Shown here: piece after piece, positions 3,472 to 39,731 of the stretch | How positions within the stretch are numbered: position 1 is the stretch's first letter | Layout: each line of letters opens with the position of its first letter | NCBI RefSeq assembly: GCF_008704795.1 | Contig: NZ_CP023690.1 | Span: forward strand, 7,388,501-7,452,500 | DNA from: Streptomyces spectabilis | GTDB lineage: Bacteria; Actinomycetota; Actinomycetes; Streptomycetales; Streptomycetaceae | Reading direction: 5' to 3' | DNA: 64,000 nucleotides | Notes under the pieces: model-generated | What the model was told of the DNA's origin: nothing | What the model saw: the letters and a program-made list of their open reading frames with translations, nothing else | Database searches by the model: none | Made by a program: the position numbers and the translations under genes

Positions 3472-9597
<6,126 letters not shown>

Positions 9598-14303: not shown

Positions 14304-14566
14304 GAGTGCTGCTCCGCCTTGAATTCGCTTGACCCCAGGGGGCGCTGCGGGAAAAGTTAGTGTCGCTCCGCCGTCAGCCCGAAGTGCCCGCCCGCCGCCC
14401 GCCCGATGCGTATTGCGCGGCAGGCACGAAAGGGCTCGTAGGACCGGCTCGCCCATTCGAGATTGATGACATCCACGGACGTCGAGTTCGCGCGCCATCG
14501 GCGCCCGTATTTGCGTATGCAATTGGCTCGTCTGTGCAGGAAGACCCACCGAGGAGTAAACGCGAA

Positions 14567-17500
14567 ATGATCCCTCTGTCCTTTGCGCAGCGCCGGCTGT
14601 GGTTCATCGACCGGCTCGAGGGCCCGTCGGCCACATACAACGTTCCGTTCGTGCTGCAGCTGGACGGAGCGCTGGACGTGGACGCCCTGCGCCTGGCGCT
14701 GCGCGACGTCGTGACCCGGCACGAGAGCCTGCGCACGCTGTTCGTCGAGGACGACGAGGGCAGGCCCGTGCAGCAGATCGAGCCTGCCGACGACCTCCTG
14801 ACGGACCTGCCCGTCCTCGACGTGACGCCCGAAGGCCTCGACGCCGCGACGGCCGAGGCCGCGTCCTACCGTTTCGACCTCTCCCACGAGATACCGGTGC
14901 GGGCACGGCTGCTGCGCACCGCCCCCGACGCGCACGTCCTGGTCCTCGTCGTGCACCACGCCGCCGCCGACGGCGAGTCGATCGCGCCGCTGAGCCGCGA
15001 CCTGGCCACCGCCTACACCGCCCGGGTGCGGTCCGAGGCGCCCCAGTGGGAGGAACTGCCGGTCCAGTACAAGGACTACACGCTGTGGCAGCGTGAGTAC
15101 CTCGGTGACGGCGACACCCCCGGCACCGTGCTGCACACCCAGCTCGACTACTGGCGCCGCGAGCTCGACGGCGCGCCGCAGCAGCTGCGCCTGCCCACGG
15201 ACCGCCCGCGGCCCTCGAAGGCCAGCCACGAGGGCGACGTCGTCGTCTTCACGGTCGACGCCGACCTCGCGGCCGCCGTCGACGCGGTGGGCAACCAGCG
15301 CGGTCTGACGCGCGCGATGATGATGCAGTCGACCCTCGCCATGCTGCTGCACCACCTCGGCGCCGGTGAGGACGTCTCCATCGGCTCGACCGTCGCGGGC
15401 CGCACCGACAGTGCGCTCAACGACCTGGTCGGCTTCTTCGTCAACACCTGGGTGCTGCGCACCGACCTGTCGGGCAACCCCACCTTCGAGCAGGTGCTCG
15501 ACCGCGTCCAGGACAAGGCGCTCGGCGCCTACGAGAACCAGGACGTGCCCTTCGAGCGGCTCGTCGAGGCGCTGAACCCGGAGCGCTCCACCGCCTACCA
15601 CCCCTTCTTCCAGGTGATGTTCAGCTGGCAGAGCACCGCTCTGGTCGAGCTGGAGCTGCCCGGTCTGACCGTCGCGCTCAAGGCCGTCGCCAACGAGACG
15701 TCGAAGTTCGACCTGGAGTTCAACTTCGCCTCCGACGAGCAGGGCCGCGTGCACTGCACCCTGGAGTACGCCACCGACCTCTTCGACCGGGCCACCGTCG
15801 AGGCGATGGGCGACCGCTTCCTGCGCATCCTGCGCGCGCTCGCGGCCGACCCCACCACCCGCGTCGGCTCGGTGGACGTGCTGTCCGCCACCGAGCAGCA
15901 CGTCCTCGCCGGGCGCAACGAGACCGCAGAGCCGACCCCCGAGGGGACCGTCGCCCAGCTCTTCGAGCGGCGCGCCGCGCTGACCCCGGACGCGATCGCG
16001 GTCACCACCGACACCCAGGACCTGACGTACCGGGAGCTCGACGAGCGGGCCAACCGCCTGGCGCACGAGCTGATCCGCCGCGGCGCGGGCCCGGAGACGC
16101 TCATCGGCCTCGCGGTGCCGCGCACCGCGGACCTGGTGACCTCCCTGCTCGGCATCCTCAAGTCCGGCGCGGCCTATGTGCCGATCGACCCGCGCTACCC
16201 CAGCGCCCGTCTCGGCCACATCCTCTCCGAGGCCCGCCCGCAGTTCATCCTGACCGACTCCGACACCGAGTCGGTGCTGCCCGACCACGAGGCCCCCCGG
16301 CTCCGGCTCGACGAGCTCGACCTGGAGAGCGGCGCGGCGGACACCCCCGCGGCCGGTCTGCGCCCGCACAACACCGCCTTCGTGATGTACACCTCCGGTT
16401 CCACCGGCAGGCCCAAGGGCGTGGCGGTCACCCACATCGGCGTGGTCAACGGCGTCACGCGTCTCGCCGCCGTGGTCGGCATCGAGCCCGGCTCGCGGAC
16501 CCTCGCCGGCACCTCCGTGAACTTCGACGTCTCGGTCTTCGAGATCATCACCACCCTGTCCGTCGGCGGCACCGTCGAGGTGGTCCGCGACGCCCTGGTC
16601 GTCGCCGAGCGCGGCGGCTGGAACGGCAGCGTCATCAGCTCGGTCCCGTCGGTCTTCGCCGAACTCCTGGACCAGGTGGGCGGGAAGATCCAGGCCGACG
16701 CGGTCGTCTTCGGCGGCGAGGCCCTGTCCGCCTCCCTCGTGGAGCGGGCCAGGGAAGCGATCCCGGGCGTGCGCGTCATCAACCCCTACGGCCAGACCGA
16801 GTCGTTCTACGCGACCGCCTTCCAGGCCGAGGAGGGCTGGACCGGCACGGCGGGCGCGCCCATCGGCGTCCCCCTTGGCAACATGCGCACCTACGTCCTG
16901 GGCGCGGGCCTGAAGCCGGTGCCGCCGGGCGTCGTGGGCGAGCTGTACGTGGCGGGCGAGGTGGCGCGCGGCTACTTCGGCCAGGCCGGGCTCACCGCCG
17001 AGCGCTTCGTCGCCGACCCCTACGGTCCGGTCGGCCACCGCATGTACCGCACCGGCGACCTCGCGCGCTGGAACGCGAGCGGCCAGCTGGAGTACGCGGG
17101 CCGTGACGACGCCCAGGTCAAGGTGCGCGGCTTCCGCATCGAGCCCGGCGAGGTGGAGGCGGCCCTCACCGCCCACCCCGGCGTGGCGAAGGCCGCCGTG
17201 GTGACGCGCCAGCACCAGGGCAGCACCCAGCTCGTCGGCTACGTGGTCGCCACCCAGCTCTGGGAGTCCGGCGACGTGGCGAACGTGGGCGACGTCGACG
17301 TCGACCTGACGGCCGCCGTCTCCTCGCGCGAGCTGCGCAGGTTCGTCTCCGACCGGCTGCCGGAGTTCATGGTGCCGTCGGTGTTCGTGATGCTCGACCG
17401 GCTGCCCCTGGACCCCAACGGCAAGCTGGACCGCAGGGCCCTGCCGGAGCCGGAGTTCACCGGCAGCGACTACCGGGCGCCGCGCAACGCGGTGGAGGAG

Positions 17501-20500
17501 GTCCTCGCCGGGGTCTACGCCGACGTGCTCGGCCTGGAGCGGGTCGGCATCGACGACGACTTCTTCGCCGTCGGCGGTGACAGCATCCGCTCCATCCAGG
17601 TGGTGGCGCGGGCCCGCACCCGGGGCGTGGAGGTCACGCCGCGGCAGATCTTCGAGTCGCGCACCGTCGCCGAGCTGGCCGAGACGGCCGCCAGCGGCGT
17701 CGAGGCCGGTCCGGTCCTGGAGGAGCTGGACGGCGGTGGCACCGGCTTCGTGCCGCACCTGCCGGTCGGCCACTGGCTGGACGAACTCGGCACCGGCGTC
17801 GACCGGTTCACCATGTCGATGACCGTCGACCTGCCCGTCGGCATGGACGAGACCGCCCTCGTCGCAACGCTCTCCGCGGTCCTCGACCACCACGACGCCC
17901 TGCGCTCGCGCCTGGTCACGGGCGCGACGCCCGGCCTCGAGGTGTCCGCACCCGGCACCGTCGACGTCGCATCCCTCGTGCACCGGGTCGCCTGCGACGG
18001 CACCTGGGCGAAGGGCTGGCACGAGCAGGCCGCCGCCGAACTCGACGCCGCCGCGAACCTGCTGGCCGCCGAGGCCGGGGTCATGGCGCGCTTCGTGTGG
18101 TTCGACGCGGGCACCGAGCAGCCCGGCCGCCTCATCCTCGTCCTGCACCACCTCGTCGTCGACGGCGTGTCCTGGAGCATCCTGCTGCCCGACCTGGCGG
18201 CCGCCTGGCAGGACGTCCGCGAGGGCCGCACCCCGGACCTCGCCCCGGTGGGCACCTCCGCCCGGCGCTGGGCGCACGCCCTGGCCGACGAGGCCGCGTC
18301 CACCGAGCGCGGCGCCGAGCTGGCGCTCTGGCGCTCCATCGTCTCCGGGCCCGACCCGGTCCTCGGCAGCCGTCCGCTCGACCCGGCCGTCGACACCATC
18401 GCGACCATCGAGTACGTCCACCAGGACCTGTCCGCCGAGGCCACGGACGCGCTCCTCACGAGCCTCCCCGCGGCCTACCGCGGCGGCGTCAACGACGGTC
18501 TGCTCGCGGCGCTCGCGCTCGCGGTGGCCAAGTGGCGCAAGCAGCGCGGCATCGACGACTCCGCCGCGTCGTCCCTGCTCGTGCGCATGGAGGGCCACGG
18601 CCGCGAGGAGGCCGCCGCGCCCGGCGCCGACCTCTCCCGCACGGTGGGCTGGTTCACCAGCATGTACCCCGTACGCCTGGACGTCGCGGGCGTCGACGTG
18701 GACGAGGCGCTCGCCGGCGGCACCGCCGCGGGCACCGCCGTCAAGGCGGTCAAGGAGCAGCTCCTCGCCGTCCCGGACAAGGGCATCGGCTACGGCCTGC
18801 TGCGCTACCTCAACCCGGAGACCGCCGAGGTCCTCAAGCGGTACGCCACCGGCCAGATCTCCTTCAACTACCTCGGCCACTACGCGGGTTCGGCGAACAT
18901 GCCGGAGAACCTGCGGGGCCTGGGCTTCACCCAGGTCGAGGGCACCACCGAGCTGGTGGCGGAGCTCGACGCCGCCATGCCCGCCCTCGCCGCGCTCAAC
19001 GTCACCGCGTACGTCGCCGACAGCGAGCAGGGGCCGCGTCTGACCGCCCGGCTCGACTACCCCTCCGGCCTCTTCACGCAGGCCGAGGTCGCCGACCTCG
19101 CCGCGCTGTGGCGCACCGCGCTCGAAGGCCTCGCGCGCCACGCCGCGCAGCCGACCGCCGGCGGCCTCACCCCGTCCGACGTGCCGCTGGTCGAGGTGGG
19201 CCAGGGCGACCTGGACACCTGGCAGGAGACGTACGCGGGCCTGGCCGACGTGCTGCCGCTGACCGCGATGCAGAGCGGTCTGCTGTTCCACACCGAGCTG
19301 GCCGGCGCGTCCTTCGACACCTACCAGATGCAGTTCGACTTCCACCTGTCCGGCGCGGTCGAGCCGGAGCGGATGCGGGCGGCCGGACAGGCTCTCCTGG
19401 ACCGCTTCCCCAACCTGCGCGCCGCGTTCACCACCGACAGCGCCGGTGACCGCGTCCAGATCATCCAGAGCCACGTGGAACTGCCCTGGCACGAGGAGGA
19501 CCTGAGCGCCTTCGAGGGCGAGGAGCGCGCGGAGCGGCTCAAGCAGTTCCTGGCCGCCGAGCACGGCACCCGCTTCGCCGTGGCCACGGCGCCGCTGCTG
19601 CGGATGTCCCTCGTCAAGCTGTCCGCCGACGCGTGGGAGCTGGTCTTCACCGCCCACCACGCCCTGTTCGACGGCTGGTCCATCCCGCTGCTCATGCAGG
19701 ACCTGATGCGGCTGTACGGCTCGGCGGGCGACGCCTCCGAGCTGGGCAGGCCCGGCAACTACCGGGACTTCCTCACGTGGCTCTCCCGCCAGGACAAGGA
19801 GGCCACCGCCCAGGCCTGGGCGAAGGAGCTGGACGGGGTCGACGAGCCCACGCTGCTGCTGCCCGTCGGCTCCGACGAGCCGGGCGAGTCCTCGGGCGCC
19901 GGCCAGATCGACGTGCCGCTCACGGCGGAGCAGTCCCGTGCGCTCTCGCGCCGCGCCAGCGAGCTGGGCGTGACCCTCAACACCGTGGTCCAGGGCGCCT
20001 GGGCGATGCTCCTCGCGGGACTGACGGGCCGTCAGGACGTGGTGTTCGGCGCCACGGTCTCCGGCCGTCCGCCGCAGGTCGCGGGCGTCGACGAGATGGT
20101 GGGCCTGTTCATCAACACCCTTCCGGTGCGGGTGGACTGCGCCCCCGGCGCGACGCTCGGCAGCGTCCTGAGCACGCTGCAGGACCGCCAGGGCGCGCTC
20201 CTCGACCACCACCACCACAGCCTCCTCGACCTGCACCAGAGCACCGGTCTGCGGGCGCTGTTCGACACGATGGTGGTCTTCGAGTCGTACCCGATCGACA
20301 GTGCCGCGCTCAGCGAGGCGTACTCCGCCGCCGGGATCTCCGTGACCGGGATCAGCCCGCTCAGCGGCACCCACTACCCGCTGACGGTCATCGCCGTCGC
20401 CGAGCCGCACCTGAAGGTGACCCTCCAGCACCAGCACCACCTCCTCGACACCGAGCGCGCGCGGGACATCTCCGTGCGCCTGGGCCGGGTCCTCGCCCAG

Positions 20501-23500
20501 CTCGCGGAGGACCCGCGGGCCCCGTTCGGCTCCATCGACCTCCTTGAGCCCGCCGAGCGCGAGCAGCTGGTCGTCGCGGTCAACGACACGGCCGCCGAGA
20601 CGCCCGAGCTGACCATCCCCGGCCTGTTCGAGCGGCAGGTCGCCGCGGTGCCGGAGAAGGTCGCGGTGACCTACGGCGACGTGGCGTACACCTACGCCGA
20701 GCTCGACGCCCGCGCGAACCGCCTCGCCCAGGAGCTGGCCGGCCGCGGCGTCGGCCCGGAGACCGTGGTGGGCCTCGCCCTGCCGCGCTCCGCCGACCTG
20801 GTCACCGGCATGCTCGGCATCCTCAAGGCGGGCGGCGCGTATCTGCCGATCGACCCGAAGTACCCGAGCACGCGCCTGGACCACATCCTGTCCACCGCGC
20901 GCCCGCAGCTCGTCCTCACCGACGCCGACACCGTCGGGGTGCTGCCGGAGACGGACGTCCCGTCCCTGTTCCTCGGCGACCTCGACCTCGAAGGCACCGC
21001 GGACGGCGAGCGGGCCGAGGTGCGTCCGCACAACGCCGCGTACGTGATGTACACCTCCGGCTCCACCGGCACCCCCAAGGGCGTCGTGGTCAGCCACGCG
21101 AACGTGGTCAACGGCGTCCTGCGGCTCGCCGACCGGGTCGGCGTCACCGCGGACACCCGGATGCTCGCCAACACGTCGGTCAACTTCGACGTCTCGGTCT
21201 TCGAGGTCGTCACCACGCTCGCCCAGGGCGGCACCATCGAGGTGGTCCGCGACGCCCTGGTCCTGGCCGAGCGCCAGGAAGTGACGGCGAGCGTGATCCA
21301 CACCGTGCCGTCCGTCTTCGCCGAGCTGGGCGAGCGCCTGCCCGCCATGACCGGCCTGGAGACGGTCGTCTTCGCCGGTGAGGCGCTGCCCGCGACGCTC
21401 GTGCACCGCATCCGCGAGTCCCTGCCCGACGTCCGGGTCGTCAACGCCTACGGCCAGACCGAGTCCTTCTACGCCTCCGCGTTCGCCATCCCGGCGGGCG
21501 CCGAATGGCAGGCCGCCGACAACACCCCCATCGGCACGCCGCTGGGCAACATGCGCACCTACATCCTCGGTGCGGGCCTCGCGCCCCTGCCGCCGGGCGT
21601 CGTGGGCGAGCTGTACGTCGCGGGCAACATCGCCCGCGGCTACTTCGGACAGGCCGAGCTGACCGCCGAGCGGTTCGTCGCCGACCCGTACGGCCCGGCC
21701 GGCGCGCGCATGTACCGCACCGGTGACCTGGCCCGCTGGAACGCCGACGGGCAGATCGAGTACGTCGGCCGCGAGGACGACCAGATCAAGATCCGCGGCG
21801 TGCGCGTCGAGCCCGCCGAGATCGAGGCCGCCCTGGCCACGCACCCGGCCGTCGGCCAGGCCGTCGTGGTCCCGCACGAGGGCGCGGGCGACAAGCAGCT
21901 CGTCGCCTACGTGGTCCCGGACCTGGACGGCACCGAGTACATCGAGGAGTCCGCCAAGCAGGTCGACGAGTGGGAGCAGATCTACGACGAGGTCTACTCC
22001 GCCACCGGCACCGAGTGGGGCGAGGACTTCACCGGCTGGAACTCCAGCTACACCGGTGAGGAGATCCCGCTCGACGAGATGCGCGACTGGCGCGACGCGG
22101 CGGTGGCGCAGATCCTGCGCACGGGCCCGCGCCGCATCCTCGAACTGGGCGTCGGCTCCGGCCTTCTGATGGGCCATCTGCTGAACGACGAGAGCATCGA
22201 GGAGTACTGGGCGACCGACCTGTCCTCGCAGGTCATCGGCCGACTCACCCAGGAGGTCGAGCAGGCCGGGTTCGCCGACAAGGTCACCCTGCGCCACCAG
22301 ACCGCCGACGACACCACCGATCTGCCCCGGGGGCACTTCGACACCGTCGTCCTGAACTCGGTGATCCAGTACTTCCCGCACGCCGCCTACCTGGACGACG
22401 TCCTCGCCAAGGCGCTCGACCTGCTCGCGCCCGGCGGCCGCATCGTGGTCGGTGACGTCCGCAACGCGGGCACGCTGCACCTGATGCGCACCGGCGTGCA
22501 GCGCACCCAGTACCCGAACGAGGCACCGGCGGCGGCCCACGCGGCCATCGCCCGCTCCATCCTCACCGAGCCCGAACTGGTCCTGGACCCCGAGTGGTTC
22601 CACCAGTTCGGCGAGAAGCACGGCGCGGCCGCGGTGGACATCCGCCTCAAGCCGGGCCAGGCCCACAACGAGCTGACGCGGCACCGCTACGAGATCTTCG
22701 TGCACAAGGACCCGGTGGACGCGGTCGACGTCAGCGACGCGCCCGCCGTGGACTGGGGCCGTCAGGTCGGCGACCTCGCCGCCCTGGAGGAGCTGGTCCG
22801 CGCCCAGGACGGTCCGGCGCTTCGCGTCACCGGCATCCTCAACGCCCGGATGATCGAGGAGGCCGACTGGGCCGCCGAGGTCAAGATCGTCGATGCGCCC
22901 CCCGCGGCCGAGTCCGCCGTGGACCCGGAGGCCCTGCACGAGTGGGCCGCCGCGCACGGCTGGAGCGTCCTGATGACCTGGTCGTCGGCGGCCGGCGAGA
23001 GCTTCGACGCGATCGTCCTGACCGACGCCGACGCCACCTCGCGGCCGGTGCGGGGCGGCTTCGTCCCGTCGCGCCGCGCCGACCTGTACCTGTCCAGCGA
23101 CCCGGCCGCGGCCACTCAGATCGGTGTCCTGGTCGGTTCGCTGCGCGGCTACCTCCAGGAGCGGCTGCCCGCCCACCTGGTGCCCGCGTCGGTGGTGGCC
23201 ATCGCCTCGGTGCCGCTGGCCGCCAACGGCAAGCTGGACCGCAGGGCGCTGCCCGCCCCCGAGCTGTCGGGGCAGGCCGGCGGCAGGCCCCCGCGCACCC
23301 TCCAGGAAGAGCTGCTCTGCGACCTGTTCGCCGAGGTCCTCGACCTGGAGCGGGTCAGCGTCGACGACAACTTCTTCGACCTGGGCGGCCACTCGCTGCT
23401 CGCCACCAAGCTCATCAGCCGCATCCGCGCCACCCTCGGCGCCGAGGTCGAGCTGCGCACCTTCTTCTCCCACCCCACGGTGGCGGGGATCGTGCCGCAC

Positions 23501-26500
23501 CTGGACGGCAGCGTCCGCACCCAGGCGCCCCTGGTCCGCGTGGCCGAGCGGCCCGAGCACCTGCCGCTCTCCTTCGCCCAGCAGCGCCTGTGGTTCGTCG
23601 ACCAGTTCGAGGGTCCGTCGGCGACGTACAACATGCCGATCGTGCTCCGTCTCAGCGGTGAGCTCGACATCCCGTCCCTGGAGACGGCGCTCAACGATGT
23701 CGTGGCCCGCCACGAGACCCTGCGCACGGTCTTCCCCGCGGTCAACGGCAAGCCCGAGCAGCAGATCCACTCCGTCGAGGACGCGCGGGTCACCCTGGCC
23801 GTGCGCGACTTCGACAGCGAGGACGAGGTGGCCGCGGCCCTCACCGAGGCCGCCCGGTACGCCTTCGCCCTGGAGAGCGAACTGCCCCTGCGCGCCCAGC
23901 TGTTCCGCAGTGGCCCGCAGGAGTCCGTCCTGTCCCTGGTGGTCCACCACATCGCGGCCGACGGCTGGTCCTACGCCCCGCTGGCCCAGGACCTGGCCGC
24001 CGCCTACACCGCGCGCGTCGGCGGCGCCGCCCCCGAGTGGACCGAGCTTCCGGTCCAGTACGCCGACTACACCCTGTGGCAGCACGAGCTGCTCGGCGAC
24101 GAGAGCGACCCGGACAGCCTGTTCAACAAGCAGTACGCCTACTGGGCGGAGCAGCTCGCCGGGCTGCCGGAGAAGGTCACCATCCCGACCGACCGGCCGC
24201 GTCCCGCCGTGCTCAAGGGCACCGGTGACCTGCTGCGCTTCACCCTGGACGCCGAGCTGCACCAGGGCATCGCGGACCTCGCCAAGGCCACCGGCACGAC
24301 GCCCTTCATGGTGCTGCAGAGCACCATGGCGGCCCTGCTGACCCGCCTCGGCGCGGGCACCGACATCTCCGTCGGCAGTGGCATCGCCGGGCGCACCGAC
24401 GAGAACCTGAAGGACCTGGTCGGTCTCTTCGTGAACCTGCTCGTGCTGCGCACGGACACCTCCGGCGACCCCACCTTCGCCGAACTTCTGGCCCAGGTGC
24501 GCAAGACCAGCCTGTCCGCGTACTCGCACCAGGACATCCCCTTCGAGTCCCTGGTGGAGAAGCTCAACCCCGAGCGCCAGCCGTCCGTCCACCCGCTGTT
24601 CCAGATCGCCCTGGCGCTCCAGAACAACGAGGCGGCCCAGTTCGAGCTGCCCGGACTGCGCGTGCAGGCCGACGGTTCCGGCACCGGAACCGCCCGCTAC
24701 GACCTGCTGCTCAGCCTGGACGAGACCTTCGAGGACCGGACCAGGCCCGCGGGCATCTCGGTCGCCGCCGAGTACTCCGACGAGCTGTTCGACGCCTCGA
24801 CGATCGAGACGCTGCTCACGCGCTGGCAGCGGCTGCTGACCACCGCGGTCACCAACCCCTCGCACCGCATCAGCTACGCGGACCTGCTCACCCCCGAGGA
24901 GCGGCGTCAGCTGCTCGCGGCGGAGCAGGAGCAGGGCGAGCGGGTGGCCGCCCCGGCGACCTTCCCGGAGCTGTTCGCGGCCCGGCTGCAGGCCGCGCCG
25001 GACGCCCTGGCGGTGGAGTCGGCCGACGTGACGTGGTCGTACGCGGAGCTGGACGCGCGGGCGAACCGCATCGCGCACTGGCTGATCGCCCGCGGCATCG
25101 GTCTGGAGCAGCAGGTGGCCGTGGCCATGCCGCGCTCGGCGGAGCAGGTCGCGGTGGCCCTGGGCATCCTGAAGGCGGGCGCCGCCTACATGCCCGTCGA
25201 CCTGGACTACCCGGCCGACCGCATCACGTACATGGTCGACGACGCCGCCCCGGCCGCCCTCCTGGTGACGCGGGCCGCGGTTGAGGACCTGCCCGAGGGC
25301 CTGGCCACCGAGGTCGTGGCCGTGGACGCCGAGGAGGTCCAGGCGGCCTGGCAGACGGCCCCGGACAGCACGCCCGCCACCGGTCTGACCCTGGACCACC
25401 CGGCGTACGTCATCTACACCTCGGGCTCCACGGGCCGCCCCAAGGGCGTCACCGTGCCGCACAGGGGCATCGCCGCGCTCAGCCACTCCACCCAGGAGCG
25501 GCTCGCCATCACCGCGGACGCCCGCATCCTGCAGGTCGCCGCGCCCAGCTTCGACGCCGCGTTCTGGGAGCTGGTGCAGTCCCTGACCACCGGCGCGGCG
25601 CTGATCGTGCCGACCGAGCGGCGCCTGGTCGGCGACGACCTGGTGCGCACCCTCACCCAGCGCCGCGTCACGCACGTGATGCTGCCGCCGAGCGTGCTCG
25701 CCGCGCTGCCCGCGGACACCCCGCGGACCCTGACCGAGCTGCGGACGGTGACCGTCGGCGGCGAGGCCTGCCCGCCCGGTCTGGCCTCGGCCTGGTCGCA
25801 GGGGCGTCGCTTCGTCAACGCCTACGGCCCCACCGAGACCACGGTCTGCGGTTCCATCTCCACCCCGCTGACCAGCGACCACACCCCCATCGGCACCGCC
25901 GTGGCCGACAACCGGGTGCGCGTGCTCGACGAGCAGCTGGCGCCGGTGCCCACGGGCACCCCCGGCGAGCTGTACGTGGCCGGTCCCAGCCTGGCCCGCG
26001 GCTACCTGGGCCGCCCGGCGCTGACCGCCGAGCGCTTCGTCACCGACCCCTACGGTCCCGCGGGTTCGCGGATGTACCGCACGGGCGACGTGGTGCGCCG
26101 GGGCGCCGACGGCCAGCTGGAGTACCTGGGCCGCAGCGACGACCAGGTCAAGCTCCGCGGCCTGCGCATCGAGCCCGGTGAGATCGAGGCGGCCCTGGCC
26201 GAGCACCACAACGTGGCCCAGGTCGTCGTCCTCGTCCGCGAGGTACGCGGCAGCAAGCAGCTGGTCGGCTACGTCGTACCGGTCGGCGCCCGCGAGTCCT
26301 CGGACGACTTCGACATCACCGCGGGTGTCTCCGCCAAGGAGCTGCGCCGCTTCGCGGCGGGCCGCCTGCCGGAGTTCATGGTGCCGTCGTCCTTCGTCCT
26401 GCTCGACGAGCTGCCGCTGACCCCCAACGGCAAGCTCGACAAGGCCGCGCTGCCCGAGCCCGAGGTGCCCGGCGGTGCCTACCAGGCGCCGCGCACGCCC

Positions 26501-29500
26501 GAGGAGCAGGCCCTTGCCGCCGCCTACGCGGAGGTCCTCGGCCTGGAGCGGGTCGGCATCGACGACGACTTCTTCGCCGTCGGCGGTGACTCCATCCGCT
26601 CCATCCAGGTCGTCTCCAAGGCCCGGGTCCACGGCATCGAGATCACGCCGCGGCAGGTCTTCGAGTGCCGTACGGTGGCCGCCCTCGCCGTGGCAGCCGC
26701 GACCGGCGGACCGGCCGTACCGGTCCGCGAGGAGCTGGAGGGCGGTGGCATCGGCCACATGCCGCTCCTGCCGATCGCCCGCTACATCACCGAACTGGGC
26801 GGCGGCTACGACCGGTTCGTGATGTCCATGGCGCTGAACCTGCCGCGCGGCATCGACGAGAGCGGTCTGATCGCCACCCTGTCCGCGGTCGTCGACCACC
26901 ACGACATGCTCCGCGCCCGCCTCGTCACCACGGACGAGACCGCCCTTGAGGTGGCCGAGCCCGGCACCGTCGACGTGGCCTCGCTGATCCGCCGCACGCC
27001 CAGCACGGGCGACTGGCAGGACGAGGCCTGGCGGGACGAGGCGAAGGCCGCGCTCGACGCCGCCGTACGGGAGCTCAACCCCGCGGCCGGCGACATGGCC
27101 CGCTTCGTGTGGTTCGACGCCGGTCCCGAGACCGCGGGCCGCCTGATCGTCGTACTGCACCACCTGGTGGTCGACGGCGTGTCCTGGCGGATCCTCGTCC
27201 CGGACTTCGCCGAGGCGTGGGAGCAGGTCCGCGAGGGCCGCACCCCCGAGCTCGCCCCGGTGCCCACCTCGATGCGCCACTGGGCCCACGCCCTCACCGA
27301 GGAGGCCGCCTCGCCCGGGCGGACGGCCGAACTCGCGCTGTGGCAGAACATCGTGGAGGGCCCGGACCCGCTGCTCGGCTCCCGGCCGATCGACCCGGCG
27401 GTGGACACGCGCGGCACCATGGAGTCCGTGGAGCTGCGGCTGGGCACCGAGGCCACCGAGGCGCTCCTGACGGCGCTGCCCGCGGCCTTCCACGGCGGGC
27501 CCAACGACGGTCTGCTCACCGCCCTCGCCCTGGCCCTGACGCAGTGGCGCAAGAAGCGCGGCGTGGACGAGTCCTCGCTGCTCCTGCGCCTGGAGGGGCA
27601 CGGCCGCGAGGAGGCGGCGGCGCCGGGTGTGGACCTGTCGCGCACGGTCGGCTGGTTCACCACCATGTTCCCCGTCCGCCTGAACGTCGAGGGCTTCGAC
27701 ATCGACGAGGCCGTCGCGGGCGGACGCTCCGCGGGCCACGCCATCAAGGCCGTCAAGGAGCAGCTCAACGCGATCCCGGACAAGGGCATCGGCTACGGCC
27801 TGCTGCGCTATCTCAACCCGGAGACCGCCGAGGTCCTCGAAGCGCGCCAGGCGGGTCAGGTCACCTTCAACTACCTGGGCCGGTTCGCCGACGGCGACCA
27901 GCCGGGCGGCGGCGGTGGCTGGGCCATCGCCTCCGACATGGAGGGCATCGCGGCCGAGCTGGACGCGGACATGCCCGCCCTGTCGACGGCGGAGATCAAC
28001 TCCTACGTGGTGGACACCGCGCAGGGCCCGCAGTTCAGCGCCTCCGTCAGCTACCCCGCCGGGCTGCTCGCCCGCGAGGAGGCGCAGGAGATCGCCGACC
28101 TGTGGCAGAACGCCCTCGAAGGCGTCGCCCGGCACGCCCGCACGCCGGACGCGGGCGGTCTGACGCCCTCGGACGTCTCCCTGGTGCGGGTGCGCCAGCG
28201 CGACCTCGAGCAGTGGGAGGAGCAGTACCCGGGCGTCCAGGACGTGTGGCCGATGACGGACGCGCAGTCCGGTCTGCTCTTCCAGAGCCAGCTCGCCGAC
28301 ACCTCCTTCGACGCCTACCACGTGCAGTTCGCGATGCACCTGTCCGGCGCGGTGGACCCGGAGCGGATGCGCGCCGCCGGTCAGACCCTGCTCGACCGGT
28401 ACGCCAACTTCCGCACCGCCTTCGTCTCCAGCGCCTCCGGGCAGCAGGTCCAGCTGGTCCTCGACCACGTCGACCTGCCCTGGCAGGTCGTGGACCTGCG
28501 GGACCTCGGTGAGCAGGCGCAGGAGGAGGCCTTCGAGAAGCTCCTCGCCGAGGACCAGACGGCGCACTTCGACCCGGCGGTCCCGCCGATGATGCGCATG
28601 ACCCTGGTGCTGCGGAGCGACGAGCTCTCGGAGCTGGTGTTCACCGTCAACCACGTGCTGTTCGACGGCTGGTCCTTCCCGCTGATGCTCCAGGACCTCA
28701 TCCGCGCCTACGCGGCGCACGGGGACATCTCAGCGCTTCCGCGGGTGCGGCCCTACCGCGACTTCCTGGCCTGGCTCGGCAAGCAGGACCAGGAGGCGGC
28801 CTACGAGGCCTGGGCGCGGGAGCTGGACGGAGTCGAGGAGCCGACGCTGCTCGCCCCCGCCGCGGCCACCACGGCCGTCCCCGACGGCCAGGACGCCACG
28901 GAACACGTGGACCTGCCGCTGTCCGCCGGGCTCGGCCAGGAACTCCAGCGCCGCGCCGGTGAGTTGGGCATCACGCTCAACATGCTGCTCCAGGGCGCGT
29001 GGGGCGTGGTCCTCGGCCACCTGACCGGGCGTCAGGACGTCGTCTTCGGTACGACGGTCTCCGGCCGTCCGCCGCAGGTGCCGGGCGTGGACGAGATGGT
29101 GGGTCTGTTCATCAACGCCCTTCCGGTGCGCGTGGAGTTCACGCCCCGGGACAGCCTCGCGGACCTGCTGACCGGGCTCCGTGAGCGCCAGGCGGTCCTC
29201 ATGGACCACCAGAACCTCGGCCTCACCGAGATCCACAAGGCCGCGGCCGTGGGCACGCTGTTCGACAGCATGATCATCTTCGAGTCGTTCCCGATCGACC
29301 GGGACGGGATGTCCGAGGCGCACGGCGAGGCCGGCGTCGCGATCACGGGCATGCGCATCCACAGCAGCACCCACTACCCGATCACCCTCGGCTCCGACCC
29401 GAACCTGAGCATGGCGGTCATCGAGTACCGCAAGGACCTGTTCGAGCGCGCCGAGATCGAGCGGATCGCCGCCCGCCTCGGCAAGGTCCTCGACCGGCTC

Positions 29501-32068
29501 GCCGCGGACCCGCACGCCCCGCTGGCGCAGCTCGACCTCGTGGACGAGGCCGAACAGGACGTGGTCCTGCGCCAGTTCAACGACACCGCCGCGGAGGTCC
29601 CCGAGAAGACGGCCATCCGTCTGATCGAGGAGCAGGTCGCCCGCACCCCGCAGGCCACCGCGGTCGTGCACGAGGACCAGCGGCTCACCTACGAGGAGCT
29701 GAACACGCGGGCCAACCGGCTCGCGCGGCACCTCACCGGGCGGGGCATCGGCCCGGACACCCAGGTGGCCGTGGTCCTGCCGCGCACCCCGGAGCTCGTG
29801 GTGGCGATCCTGGCGGTCCTCAAGTCCGGCGCCGCCTACGTCCCGATCGACCCCGGCTACCCGGGCACCCGCCTGCGGCACATCCTCGACACGGCCGGGC
29901 CGCGACTGATCGTCACCGACACCACGGTGGCCGACGTCCTGCCCGAGGGGGTGGACACCGAGCTGCTGCTGCTCGACGAGACGGACGTGTCGGCGTACGC
30001 CGACACCGATGTGTCCGACGGCGAGCGGACCGGTGCGCTGCTCCCCGACCACCTGCTGTACCAGATCTACACCTCCGGCTCGACGGGCCTGCCCAAGGGC
30101 GTGGGCCTGACCCACGCCAACATGGTCAACGCCCTGCACGGCATGGTGGACGAGGTCGGTCTCGGGTCGGGTCTGCGGATGCTGGCGAGCACCTCGATCG
30201 GCTTCGACGTGGCCAGCTTCGAGCTGCTGTTCACCCTCACCAACGGTGGCAGCGTCGAACTGGTCCGGGACGTCCTGGCGCTCGCCGAGCGCGACAGCTG
30301 GGACCTGGACGTCGTCAGCTCGGTGCCCTCGGCCTTCGCGGAACTCGTCGACCAGCTCGGCGAGCGCGTCACGCCCAAGGCGCTGCTCTTCGGCGGCGAG
30401 GCGCTCACCCCGGCCCTGGTGGACCGCATCCGCGCCCAGTGGCCGGACGTGCGGATCGTCAACTGCTACGGGCCGAGCGAGGCGTTCTACGTCACCTCGC
30501 ACGTCCTGGACAAGGACGCCTCGTACGCCGCGGGGGTGCCCATCGGGCGCCCGCTGAACAACCTGCGCGGCTACGTCCTGACGCCGTCCCTGACCCCGGT
30601 CGCCCAGGGTGCCGTCGGCGAGCTCTACCTCGCGGGCGCCGGTGTCGGCCGCGGCTACCACGAGCGCACGGCACAGACCGCCGAGCGCTACCTGGCCGAC
30701 CCGTTCGGCCCGGCGGGCGGGCGCATGTACCGCACCGGTGACCTCGCCCGCTGGAGTGCGGACGGGCACTTGGAGTACCTCGGCCGTGCCGACTCCCAGG
30801 TGAAGATCCGCGGCTTCCGCATCGAGCCCGGCGAGGTCGAGGCGGCGGTGGCGGCGCACCCGCGGGTCGCCCAGGCCGCGGTGGTCGCTCGCGCCACCGG
30901 GGGCAGCAAGCAGCTGGTCGCCTACGCGGTGCCCGAGGCCGGCGCGGAGCTCGAAGGCGCGGAACTGCGCTCCTTCGTGGCCGAGCGGCTGCCCGAGTAC
31001 ATGGTGCCCGCGGCGTTCGTCGCCCTGGAGCGCCTGCCGCTGTCGCCGAACGGCAAGCTCGACCACCGGGCGCTCCCGGCGCCCGACCTCACGGGGACGG
31101 CGGCCTACCGGTCGCCGCGCACGCCCCAAGAGGAGGTCCTGGCCGGCCTGTTCGCGCAGGTCCTCGGGGTGGAGAAGGTCGGCATCGACGACAACTTCTT
31201 CGACCTCGGCGGGCACTCCCTGCGCGCCACGCGCCTGGTGAGCCGGATCGCGGCCGTCCTCATGATCGAGGTGCCGATGCGGACGGTGTTCCAGGCGCCC
31301 ACGGTCGCCCAGCTGGCCGCGCGCCTCACGGCGGGCGGCGAGGGCGCCGAGGCCGAGAGCACCGACCCTTACGGGGTCGTCCTGCCGCTGAAGAGCGGCG
31401 GCACCGGCACCCCCGTGTGGTTCATCCACCCCGGTATGGGCCTCTCCTGGTCGTACCTGGGCATGGCCATGCAGCTCGGTGACCGGCCGGTGTATGGCAT
31501 CCAGGCCCGCGGCTTCGACGGCTCGCCGATCCCGGAGAGCTTCGAGGCGATGGTCCTGGACTACGTGGAGCAGATCCTGGCCGTCCAGGAAGAGGGGCCG
31601 TACCACTTCGTCGGCCACTCGATGGGCGGTACCCTGTCCCACGCCGTCGCCGCCGAACTCCAGCGCCGTGGCCACGAGGTGCCCTTCATCGCGCTCCTCG
31701 ACGCCGCGCCGACGAGTGCCTTCGTCTCGGGTGACGTGGTGCTCGACCGGTCCGTGGGCCGGGAGTTCCTCGCCGGTTACCTCCCGGGCGAGGAGGAGGA
31801 CGCCGAGCGCCAGACGCTCATCGAGAACGGCGCCCTGATCATGTCCGAACACGTACGGATCGCACGGGAGTTCACCCAGCCCGTGTACCGCGGCACGGCG
31901 CTGTACTTCAACGCGACGCTGAGCCCGGAGGCCCAGGCCTCGTTCTGGGACCCGTACGTCGAAGGGGATGTGCGCGTCAGCGACATCCACGCCACGCACT
32001 TCGGCCTGACCGCACCCAAGGTCGCGGCCGAGATCTGCACCGTCATCAACCGCCACCTCGCGGGCTGA
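14567..32068 (+). CDS. NRPS 2: C-A-T-E / C-A-NMT-T / C-A-T-E / C-A-T-TE
   Basis: 5833 aa from the ATG at 14567, chosen for its GAGGAG site and because [13 protein letters not shown] is a normal condensation-domain start; an upstream in-frame GTG at 14360 only adds unrelated residues. Approximate residues: C 1-440 (HHAAADG), A 461-950, T 1005, E 1054-1530; C 1560-2000, A 2015-2880 with an inserted methyltransferase 2457-2718 (ILELGVGSG near 2524), T 2943; C 3000-3450, A 3465-3960, T 4008, E 4059-4530; C 4558-5000, A 5018-5500, T 5549; thioesterase 5604-5833 (GHSMGG, Ser near 5685). The second residue should be N-methylated; the first and third should be D. My pocket readings are DVFSVGPYAK, DVFTVAAYAK, DAWMTGAVCK (aromatic-like) and DVFSLGCYVK; three are sister sequences I cannot assign. 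TE releases, probably by cyclisation. Confidence 0.93.
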
Positions 32069-34296: not shown

Positions 34297-34446
34297 ATGG
34301 ACATCCAGTTGAGCACCGAGGCCAGCAGCGACCTGGGCGAGCTAGAGGTACTCGAGATGGACGAACTGCAAGTCAGCGGTTCGTCCACGGCCTACAACTA
34401 CATCGCCAGGAATGCGGACCGTTCCTCGGACGCACCGGCGGGCTGA
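34297..34446 (+). CDS. RiPP precursor peptide (49 aa)
   Basis: 49-residue peptide with an excellent ribosome site (GGAGG at 34288-34292) directly upstream of two radical SAM genes. Residues 1-27 are strongly acidic with a hydrophobic ladder (LGELEVLEMDEL), as in RiPP leaders that bind a recognition element. A VSGSS turn follows, then a basic/polar tail beginning TAYNYIARN and ending in Ser/Asp/Ala/Pro/Gly. There is no Cys, no signal peptide and no membrane segment. The likely core is the last 20 or so residues, with Tyr33, Asn34, Tyr35, Ile36 and Asn39 as plausible C-methylation or crosslink targets. The function as a modified-peptide precursor is inferred from composition, size and neighbours. 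I do not recognise the family. Confidence 0.75.
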   Translation: MDIQLSTEASSDLGELEVLEMDELQVSGSSTAYNYIARNADRSSDAPAG

Positions 34447-34574
34447 CCCGCGGGCTGACGACGCATCGCCGAATGAGGGGCTCACAAGATCTTCCGCCGC
34501 TTGTGGGCCCCTTCGGTGAATTCCAGGACTTCGCGCACCCGGCCGGCTCCACCGTCCGGACCAGGACGGATGGC

Positions 34575-36521
34575 ATGGATCTGCTGCTGCTCTTTCCGCC
34601 GCTGACGGAGGCGACTCTCTTTCCGTATCTGAGCCTTCCCTATCTCGCCGGTCACGTCCGCCGGTCCGGCTACAGCGCCCACCAGGTCGATCTGAGCATC
34701 GAATTGGTCCATCGGCTTCTGGACGGCCCGACGCTCGCCCACGAGGCCCGGGCCCTGGACGACGCGCAGGATCTGCCCACCTGGTACCGGGCGGCGGTGG
34801 CCGACGCCTCCCTGCGGCACCTGGGCGAGATGCGCGACTTCGTCCTGACGAAGAACCCGGCGCCCCGCCTCGGTCCCGTACGAGCGGTGCGACTGGCCCG
34901 CCAGGCCGCCCGACTGACGCTGCGCGCATCGCCGCTGTCCCGCGTGTGGGACGACTACGACTCGCTCGACAAGGCGGTGCTCCGGCTGTCCCGGTCGCCG
35001 ATCGGTTCCCTCGACGTCGCGACCCGGAATCTGCACGGCCTGCTGACGGAGGCTCTCGACGCGTCCGCGCCGCGGGCGGTCGGCATATCCGTCGCCTTCT
35101 TCAGTCAGTTGGCACCGGCTCTGCTCATCGCCCAGTGGATCCGGCGGCGCCACCCCGGCATTCCCGTCTGCCTCGGCGGACAGCAAGTCATGCTGCGGCA
35201 CGACGAATTGGCCGCGCTGACCTCCGTACGTACGGCGGTGGACGCGCTCTGCGTCACGGCGGGCGAAGAGCCCCTGGAGCGCTGGCTGGCCCACCTCGCC
35301 GGAAACGCGCCGCTCTCCGACGTGCCGGGGATGAGATGGCTGAGCCCCGAAGGCGTGAAAGGCCCCGGCCGGCTGCCCACGCTGCGCTTCAAGGACGTAG
35401 GCGCACCTGATTACGACGGATTGAAGGTGCACTCCTATCTCAATGACACCGTCGTCCTCTCCATGGTGTCCTGTGTGGGCTGCTACTGGGGGCGCTGCGT
35501 CTTCTGTTCCTACGGCAACCGGTCGCTCGAACGCGGGGCCTATCAGCAGGCCTCACCGGCGCAACTCGCGGACACCGTAGGCCGGATCGTGGAGAGCACC
35601 GGAATCGACTTCGTCACCGTCGTCGACGAGAACACCAACCTGCGCCTGCTCGCCCGGGCTATGCGCCTGGTGCGCGAGAGCGGCCTCCGTGTCCGTTTCA
35701 ACACGCGCAACCGACTGGAACCGATCCTGCTCGACCCGGCCTTCTGCGAGGAACTGGCCGCACTCGGCTGCGAGGGAATGGCCGTCGGCTACGAAGGCGT
35801 CTCACAGCGGCTGCTCGACAAGCTGGACAAGGGCGTCCGTGCCGAGGACTTCCAGACCGTCCTCGACAACCTCGCGGCAGCGGGCATCCAGGTCAACCTC
35901 TCGGTCATGGGCGGCCTCCTGGACGAGACCGATGAGGAGGCCGAGGAGTCGCTCCGCTTCCTCGAACGCAACCGCGACAAATTCGCCGTCGACGCGTTCG
36001 AACTCATGGTGGCGGAGCCGGGAACCCTCCTGGTGGCCGATCCGCAGCGCTTCGGCGTGGTCCTCGACCGCTCGGACGCGTTCGCCGACAACCGCGAACT
36101 CAACTACCTGGGCGGCAGGGTGGGCAGGCGGCACACCGTCGTCGGCGGACCCGGGCGCCCCGACACGCTGAAGCGGCTGAAGCACGGCATGCGCCGGATC
36201 TCGGCGGCCGCGGCCGGACCCGTCGCGACCGTGGCGCGGCCCCCGGCGCGGCACAGCGCGCTGCGCCCGCACCCGTGGATCCGGTGCGCTCCGGAGAGGC
36301 TCTCCCCGCCCGGCCCGGACGGCGGCTCCTTCCTGCTGGCCGATCCGGTACGGGAACAGGTGTATGCACTGCCGAAGAACCACGTGACCCGAAGCGCCGC
36401 GCCCGACGGGCCCTTGACCGCGACCAGTGAGCGGGGCCGGTCCCTGCTCGGCAGGCTCGCCGCCGCGGATGCCGGTCTCATGTGCGACGCACCGCCACCG
36501 GCCGTCCGTCCGTCACGCTGA
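34575..36521 (+). CDS. Cobalamin-binding radical SAM enzyme 1
   Basis: 648 aa from the ATG at 34575, chosen because MDLLLLFPP is the usual first strand of a B12-binding domain; an in-frame ATG at 34473 would add 34 unremarkable residues. The N-terminal half is a Rossmann-like cobalamin-binding domain (AVGISVAFFSQ, PVCLGG). The radical SAM core has Cys300, Cys308 and Cys311 in a Cx7CxxC cluster motif (with Cys303 also in the loop), followed by barrel elements such as EGMAVGYEG and MGGLLDET. The C-terminus (about 520-648) is Arg/Ala/Pro-rich. Such enzymes most often methylate unactivated carbon using SAM and methylcobalamin, but other radical chemistry occurs. It lies 128 nt after the precursor and 12 nt before the second enzyme. 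I infer peptide modification; the target is unknown. Confidence 0.85.
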   Translation: MDLLLLFPPLTEATLFPYLSLPYLAGHVRRSGYSAHQVDLSIELVHRLLDGPTLAHEARALDDAQDLPTWYRAAVADASLRHLGEMRDFVLTKNPAPRLGPVRAVRLARQAARLTLRASPLSRVWDDYDSLDKAVLRLSRSPIGSLDVATRNLHGLLTEALDASAPRAVGISVAFFSQLAPALLIAQWIRRRHPGIPVCLGGQQVMLRHDELAALTSVRTAVDALCVTAGEEPLERWLAHLAGNAPLSDVPGMRWLSPEGVKGPGRLPTLRFKDVGAPDYDGLKVHSYLNDTVVLSMVSCVGCYWGRCVFCSYGNRSLERGAYQQASPAQLADTVGRIVESTGIDFVTVVDENTNLRLLARAMRLVRESGLRVRFNTRNRLEPILLDPAFCEELAALGCEGMAVGYEGVSQRLLDKLDKGVRAEDFQTVLDNLAAAGIQVNLSVMGGLLDETDEEAEESLRFLERNRDKFAVDAFELMVAEPGTLLVADPQRFGVVLDRSDAFADNRELNYLGGRVGRRHTVVGGPGRPDTLKRLKHGMRRISAAAAGPVATVARPPARHSALRPHPWIRCAPERLSPPGPDGGSFLLADPVREQVYALPKNHVTRSAAPDGPLTATSERGRSLLGRLAAADAGLMCDAPPPAVRPSR

Positions 36522-36533
36522 AGGAGTCACACG

Positions 36534-39080
<2,547 letters not shown>

Positions 39081-39086
39081 CGGAAG

Positions 39087-39731
39087 GTGCTTCACGACGA
39101 ATCCGCCGCGCCGCCGCGCTCCCTCAACGCGGCCGAATGGGACCACACGTACGACCGCACGGTCGCCGGATGGGACGAGGAGCCGCCACCCGTGCTCGGC
39201 GTACTCCTCGCCGCGTACGCTCCGCCCCCGGCCCGCATCATGGACGTCGGCTGCGGCCTCGGCACCACCGCGCGCTGGCTCGCCGACCGCGGCTACACCG
39301 TGACGGCCTGCGACTTCTCGACCCGGGCGATCGAAGAGGCCCGACGCCGCACACCGGCCACCGCGGCGGTGCGCTACGAGCTCCTGGACGCCACCGACCC
39401 CGCGTCACCCCTGCACGCGTTCCCGGTGGTCCTCGACCGCGGCGTCCTGCACACCTGCCCCACCGACGGCGAGCGCCGGACGTTCGCCGCGGCGATGTCC
39501 CGGATGTGCGGGCCCGGCGGACTGTGGTTCCACGTCGGCGCCGCCGCGCTCAGCGAGGAGGATGCCCTGAACCAGTCACGCGGACCGTCCTGGACCACGG
39601 AGAAGACCTTCCTCGACGCGGTGTCGCCGTGGTTCACGGTGCTCGCCCTCCACACCGCCGACTTCGGCCGCCGACCGGGGGTGACGGACTGGCCGGCCCG
39701 GTACGCGGTGCTCCGGCGCAGGGCGACCTGA
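39087..39731 (+). CDS. Class I SAM-dependent methyltransferase
   Basis: 214 aa Rossmann-fold methyltransferase. SAM-binding motif I is MDVGCGLGTT near residues 51-60, with the acidic residue of motif II in TACDFS and DRGVLH after strand 4. It begins with a GTG 6 nt after the radical SAM fusion gene and is the last gene of the RiPP operon. It is the size of enzymes that methylate small molecules or peptide side chains and termini. I infer O- or N-methylation of the modified peptide; a small-molecule role cannot be excluded. A convergent gene follows. Confidence 0.8.
   Translation: MLHDESAAPPRSLNAAEWDHTYDRTVAGWDEEPPPVLGVLLAAYAPPPARIMDVGCGLGTTARWLADRGYTVTACDFSTRAIEEARRRTPATAAVRYELLDATDPASPLHAFPVVLDRGVLHTCPTDGERRTFAAAMSRMCGPGGLWFHVGAAALSEEDALNQSRGPSWTTEKTFLDAVSPWFTVLALHTADFGRRPGVTDWPARYAVLRRRAT

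Follow-up and report, generated by a model that had tools for sequence, protein, structure and literature searches.

A putative MNIO-less branch of the biphenomycin/YHxYxY RiPP family in Streptomyces spectabilis

A stretch of 64,000 nucleotides from the Streptomyces spectabilis genome (contig NZ_CP023690.1; here called the window) carries a gene for a short peptide, two genes for B12-type radical SAM enzymes and one for a methyltransferase. What would these genes make together, and do they form a class of their own? The original prediction, made from the sequence of the window, knew of no named RiPP class with this gene set and proposed C-methylation of a short core. Comparison with related loci indicates that the cassette is not stand-alone but a divergent, derived branch of the biphenomycin (pbs/bip)/YHxYxY RiPP family, as this family was described in 2025 (PMC12257519, PMC12707348). 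Text searches covering the body of published articles returned no report of the branch or of its core.

The cassette and its surroundings

The cassette and the two large genes upstream of it are arranged as follows.

14360-32068: large NRPS upstream of the cassette, 92-93% identical beside locus L066
32188-33459: P450 upstream of the cassette, 92-93% identical beside L066
34297-34446, + strand: precursor peptide ORF of 49 aa, with an ATG start and GGAGG four bases upstream
34575-36521, + strand: rA, B12-type radical SAM enzyme of 648 aa, placed in the PbsB/BipD family by gene context and predicted to form a Tyr-Tyr C-C cross-link
36534-39080, + strand: rB, 848 aa, TIGR03975 B12-type radical SAM C-methyltransferase (residues 3-601) fused to DUF5825 (residues 676-846)
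39087-39731, + strand: class I SAM methyltransferase of 214 aa, the third tailoring enzyme (Methyltransf_25, 55.7 bits)

The coordinates confirm the four genes and the gaps of 128, 12 and 6 nt between precursor, rA, rB and methyltransferase that had been described before. The Cx7CxxC motif previously ascribed to both radical SAM enzymes is present in rA as CVGCYWGRCVFC and, read in translation, in rB as CWWGQKHHCTFC. The list of two B12-type radical SAM enzymes and a methyltransferase stands, but it had missed the DUF5825 domain fused to the C-terminus of rB (168 bits, cut-off 25).

Precursor, rA, rB and methyltransferase recur in identical order in four genomes, always with 12 nt between rA and rB: the window, L037 (S. 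atriruber), L047 (S. silaceus) and L066 (G390). These are referred to as the YNY loci, after the core of their precursor. Among the genes common to all four, no protease, exporter, arginase, hydroxylase or TldD gene was seen; the source genome has a single TldD-type match, away from the cassette. The P450 was rejected as part of the system, since it was found beside two of the four YNY loci (window and L066) and the stretches fetched for L037 and L047 did not contain it. The NRPS was likewise rejected, yet an NRPS-like frame, 46% identical to that of the window, lies upstream of L037, and the NRPS neighbourhood may conceivably be more than chance. Apart from this frame, the wider flanks are common to the window and L066 only.

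Related loci and the history of the branch

Counting each contig once, we assembled 20 loci with context and an rA relative of at least 50% identity, four of them YNY loci and 16 others; L039 and L051 (on the contig of L031), L054 (of L037), and L068 and L057 (of L042) were excluded from the counts as repeats. A single scan across genome contigs turned up 14 loci containing an rA relative, and a draw of 392 genomes of the genus gave 12 genomes with an rA match at 1e-60, yielding the MNIO-less L066 and L037 again (G120). A draw of 100 genomes searched with one protein gave 46 with any match at 0.001, only G000 and G011 being close, and further draws gave matches in 4 of 248 genomes, with nothing new, and in 3 of 394, including G669 (locus L074). 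Plasmid records held five partial matches to rA and no full-length relative.

A peptide of the family lies upstream of rA in all 20 loci, which agrees with the original reading of the cassette as a RiPP locus, and in none of them were the enzymes found without such a peptide. Three distant loci with rA at about 30% (L070, L071 and L072) possess MNIO and its partner and show no recognisable precursor upstream.

The 16 loci outside the YNY branch all carry genes for MNIO and a partner after rA (in L049 with broken frames), and neither was found in any of the four YNY loci. The identification as MNIO relies on PF05114, which scored 43-49 bits in each of the four proteins tested (L031, L040, L042 and L069), and elsewhere on similarity to that of L031. 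Identity to the window rA is 82-83% in the three loci with the window-like layout and 50-55% in 15 of the MNIO-bearing loci; the sixteenth, L049, aligns in pieces of 56-66%. L049 (Streptomyces sp. P3) has broken frames in rA, the partner, rB and DUF5825. In L031, sulfotransferase-like and lantibiotic-dehydratase-like neighbours (L031:14937-15803 and 5039-8110) were noted by eye only.

rB and a DUF5825 gene occur together in 14 of the 16 MNIO-bearing loci, and in all 14 the DUF5825 gene is separate and stands beside rB, as against the fusion in 4/4 YNY loci. The fetched stretches of the other two, L042 and L069, both with FHAFRF precursors, lack the pair. L042 (S. morookaense) combines its FHAFRF precursor with an rA counterpart, MNIO, the partner, a JmjC_2 protein and a TldD C-terminal domain; no rB homologue besides the rA gene itself was found there at 1e-6, and the locus looks like a bip-type cluster. 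Every YNY locus has a class I methyltransferase gene after rB, whereas a relative at 1e-6 was met in only one of the 16 MNIO-bearing loci (L067), upstream and on the opposite strand. This relative (L067:12357-12959) is 52% identical to the window enzyme. No NCBIfam family exceeded its cut-off among the 25 listed of the 43 matches of the window methyltransferase, nor did any for its relatives.

How did a branch without MNIO arise? In a tree of 22 rA sequences, drawn with a midpoint root, the four YNY rows form one group (100/100) whose sister is the FHAFRF group (98/99). A second tree, of 42 rows and with three distant MNIO-bearing loci as its root, unites the YNY rows and relatives at 67-75% in a group of 13 (100/100) that is sister to the YHxYxY group (99/94), with long branches meeting at the root (a program warning). 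L049 was omitted from both because of its broken frames. The nearest sister of the YNY branch thus differs between the two trees, but MNIO-bearing loci surround the branch in both, so that a single loss of MNIO in the YNY lineage would be the simplest reading. Since this would be one event, the four YNY loci are not independent tests of it. On sequence grounds, the precursor and rA share descent with the MNIO-bearing family. Nine of the 120 rA relatives listed have 67-71% identity, including proteins from Micromonospora and Actinoplanes, and none of the 62 peptides of our profile search (below) could be linked to them.

Precursor and enzymes

The window precursor consists of a leader, GELEVLEMDELQVSG, and a core with TAYNYIA (Tyr33-Asn34-Tyr35). 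All nine candidates from a protein search, the window's own included, are 49 aa long and contain GSSTAYNYIA, with both core tyrosines invariant; over codons 13-44 in four genomes, dN is 0-0.028 against a dS of 0.26-0.78. These two observations argue that the precursor is not a chance ORF. Seven of the eight records other than that of the window appear to come from contigs that also encode an rA relative at 81% identity or more, P0005 being the exception, although this is a hint only. The 62 peptides from a wider profile search comprise 46 with YHxYxY, six with FHxFxF, nine with TAYNY and one other, P0170. An aromatic-x-aromatic pair is present in 61 of them (Y-x-Y in 55, F-x-F in six), P0170 again excepted. 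This peptide, from S. monomycini, has YNH for YNY and an unrelated tail, and is perhaps a decayed copy. The window precursor does not carry the [F/Y]Hx[F/Y]x[F/Y] motif: its STAYNY shows Ser-Thr where [Y/F]-His would stand and retains Y-x-Y, and the cores align without gaps, YNYIA over the YTYIA of relatives and ST over their YH.

rB has a clear assignment. It scores 609.1 bits against TIGR03975, 'RiPP maturation radical SAM C-methyltransferase' (cut-off 281.85), with a Pfam B12-binding match of 32.1 bits, at the cut-off, and among the YNY genomes its dN is 0.067-0.078 for a dS of 0.29-0.37. Membership of this family supports C-methylation of the peptide by rB, at family level. According to PMC12257519, a homologous radical SAM-DUF5825 pair C-methylates in clavusporin biosynthesis, and the same pairing, the two being encoded together, is found in the window locus as a fusion. 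DUF5825 occurs in 91 of the 392 genomes of the genus (103 matches); the best 30 of the 103 all adjoin an rB homologue (55-59%) on the same strand, and none is fused. The same genome carries a second, unfused B12 radical SAM and DUF5825 pair (L102, G000:C1:9400181-9402459). Kinship of DUF5825 with the MNIO partner was considered and received no support (hhalign probability 0.1%), and no relative with a solved structure appeared at E 1.

The placement of rA is less direct. Scored with 30 additional upstream codons (from 34485), it matches the radical SAM core at 57 bits (cut-off 29.5) and Pfam B12-binding at 23.4 bits, under the cut-off of 32.1, and it exceeds no curated NCBIfam cut-off: the best is TIGR04479 (P-methyltransferases), at 68 bits of 600, and TIGR03975 gives 66 bits for a cut-off of 282. 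Because L042 resembles the bip cluster, its rA counterpart leads us to equate rA with PbsB/BipD, a putative assignment by gene context.

Could rA be a second methylase, so that both B12 enzymes methylate unactivated carbons and no ring is formed? The annotation of TIGR03975 members as C-methyltransferases and the distant similarity of rA to TIGR04479 and TIGR03975 would fit this. However, rA is 53% identical to its counterpart in L042 against only 26% to rB, and the aromatic-x-aromatic pair persists in 61 of 62 precursors; we regard methylation by both enzymes as unlikely. Of the C-methylation originally proposed, the part concerning rB is thus upheld at family level, whereas rA is more likely a cross-linking enzyme.

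Another reading keeps rA as a bond-forming enzyme but gives it a different bond in the YNY branch, such as Tyr-Asn or Tyr-backbone, or an ether where a biaryl is expected. We compared rA positions across five FHAFRF, 13 YHxYxY, six distant (four named Bacillota) and 14 YNY rows, of which ten YNY and three FHAFRF rows are database proteins assigned by similarity and record match. Seven positions set the YNY rows apart: Tyr426 is unchanged in all other rows but replaced by Phe in these, and six more differ consistently. A change of bond might go with these differences and with the disappearance of the leading [Y/F]-H. Against it, of the 96 positions that do not vary among the FHAFRF, YHxYxY and six distant rows, 85 are retained in all 14 YNY rows, and seven private positions are not unusual, since the FHAFRF rows have nine and the YHxYxY rows four; both tyrosines, moreover, are invariant in the nine YNY peptides. 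A bond of another kind accordingly seems to us improbable, to about the same degree as methylation by both enzymes.

Predicted chemistry and its place among known systems

Our preferred reading, which we hold to be rather more probable than its competitors taken together, is a short biphenomycin-like RiPP made without MNIO, in which rA would join Tyr33 and Tyr35 unhydroxylated, rB would C-methylate the peptide and the methyltransferase would add another methyl. We infer each chemical step. The leader GELEVLEMDELQVSG would present the core; rA, by SAM radical chemistry like that of its PbsB-type relatives, would link the rings of Tyr33 and Tyr35 through a C-C bond, so that Tyr-Asn-Tyr becomes a ring of three residues; C-methylation of the peptide would be the work of rB and the DUF5825 domain fused to it, as the family of rB suggests; the class I methyltransferase would methylate an O, an N or a carboxyl; and leader removal and export would fall to genes outside the cassette.

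Ring formation without hydroxylation is suggested by the pattern of loss: the branch lacks MNIO, the partner and the leading [Y/F]-H all at once but retains Y-x-Y and rA, as would be expected if the ring no longer needed hydroxylation. The pbs work is instructive on this point. As reported in PMC12257519, PbsB joins ortho-tyrosines after the action of MNIO and arginase, and native cross-linking required this prior hydroxylation and arginase action; PbsB nevertheless macrocyclised an engineered, non-hydroxylated YTY peptide, and gave no cross-link with a YRY variant. Of the precursor residues, Phe5 was important to the MNIO, and His6 of the FH motif to the arginase and to PbsB, for which the H6A variant showed this His to be critical. 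The biaryl bond of the bip system is attributed to BipD (PMC12707348). Carried over to rA by analogy, part of this speaks against direct joining of Tyr33 and Tyr35: the His reported as critical for PbsB is missing from the window precursor, YRY was not cross-linked, and pbs needed hydroxylation and arginase (PMC12257519).

Might an MNIO encoded elsewhere hydroxylate the tyrosines in trans, leaving ordinary biphenomycin-type chemistry? The genome has one MNIO that we could find (L073, G000:C1:7250383-7251177), but it lies about 172 kb from the cassette, is BufB-like (best match BufB, 180.7 bits, below the cut-off of 310) and gave no tblastn match with the L031 MNIO at 1e-6; the partner and the leading aromatic, described as important for MNIO action in pbs (PMC12257519), are also gone, which makes hydroxylation in trans very improbable. 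We give equally little credence to a decaying remnant without a product, for although MNIO and partner are lost, the shared genes include no protease or exporter and P0170 looks decayed, precursor and rB are under purifying selection and the gene order is the same in all four genomes.

The direct cross-link in the window would combine features of several known systems. Biphenomycin-like RiPPs (pbs from Peribacillus simplex BE23, bip from S. griseorubiginosus) share with it the type of leader, the aromatic-x-aromatic core and, judged by gene context, a B12 radical SAM enzyme of the rA family. Unlike them, the window has no MNIO or partner, has a YNY core without [Y/F]-H, and adds rB-DUF5825 and the methyltransferase; the TldD-type protease of the pbs/bip clusters is absent from the genes common to the four YNY loci. 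The YHxYxY clusters (stg type, as described in PMC12257519) pair a PbsB-type radical SAM enzyme with a second B12 radical SAM enzyme and DUF5825, as does the window, but possess MNIO, the partner and a separate DUF5825 gene where the window has neither of the former and a fusion. The clavusporins, compared by description only (PMC12257519, PMC12951456), have an rB-DUF5825 pair and reported C-methylation, to which the window adds rA and the Tyr core. Biarylitides, cittilin and aminopyruvatide contain the three-residue Tyr-x-Tyr ring expected here, but cross-link Tyr to Tyr by a P450 rather than, as predicted for the window, by a B12 radical SAM enzyme.

It is in our judgement an even chance that the YNY branch is a naturally occurring lineage whose B12 radical SAM enzyme builds a Tyr-Tyr biaryl on plain tyrosines, with neither hydroxylation nor P450, and whose fused radical SAM-DUF5825 protein C-methylates, a biphenomycin-type ancestor having lost MNIO a single time and retained the ring chemistry. 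If true, this would add a way to biaryl rings of three residues that needs no P450 and is coupled with C-methylation. Surveys that start from the MNIO, as in PMC12257519, would miss the branch. The authors of that paper raise the question of why activation by MNIO should have evolved at all, given that tyrosines yield the same ring, and a lineage apparently without MNIO would make their question directly testable.
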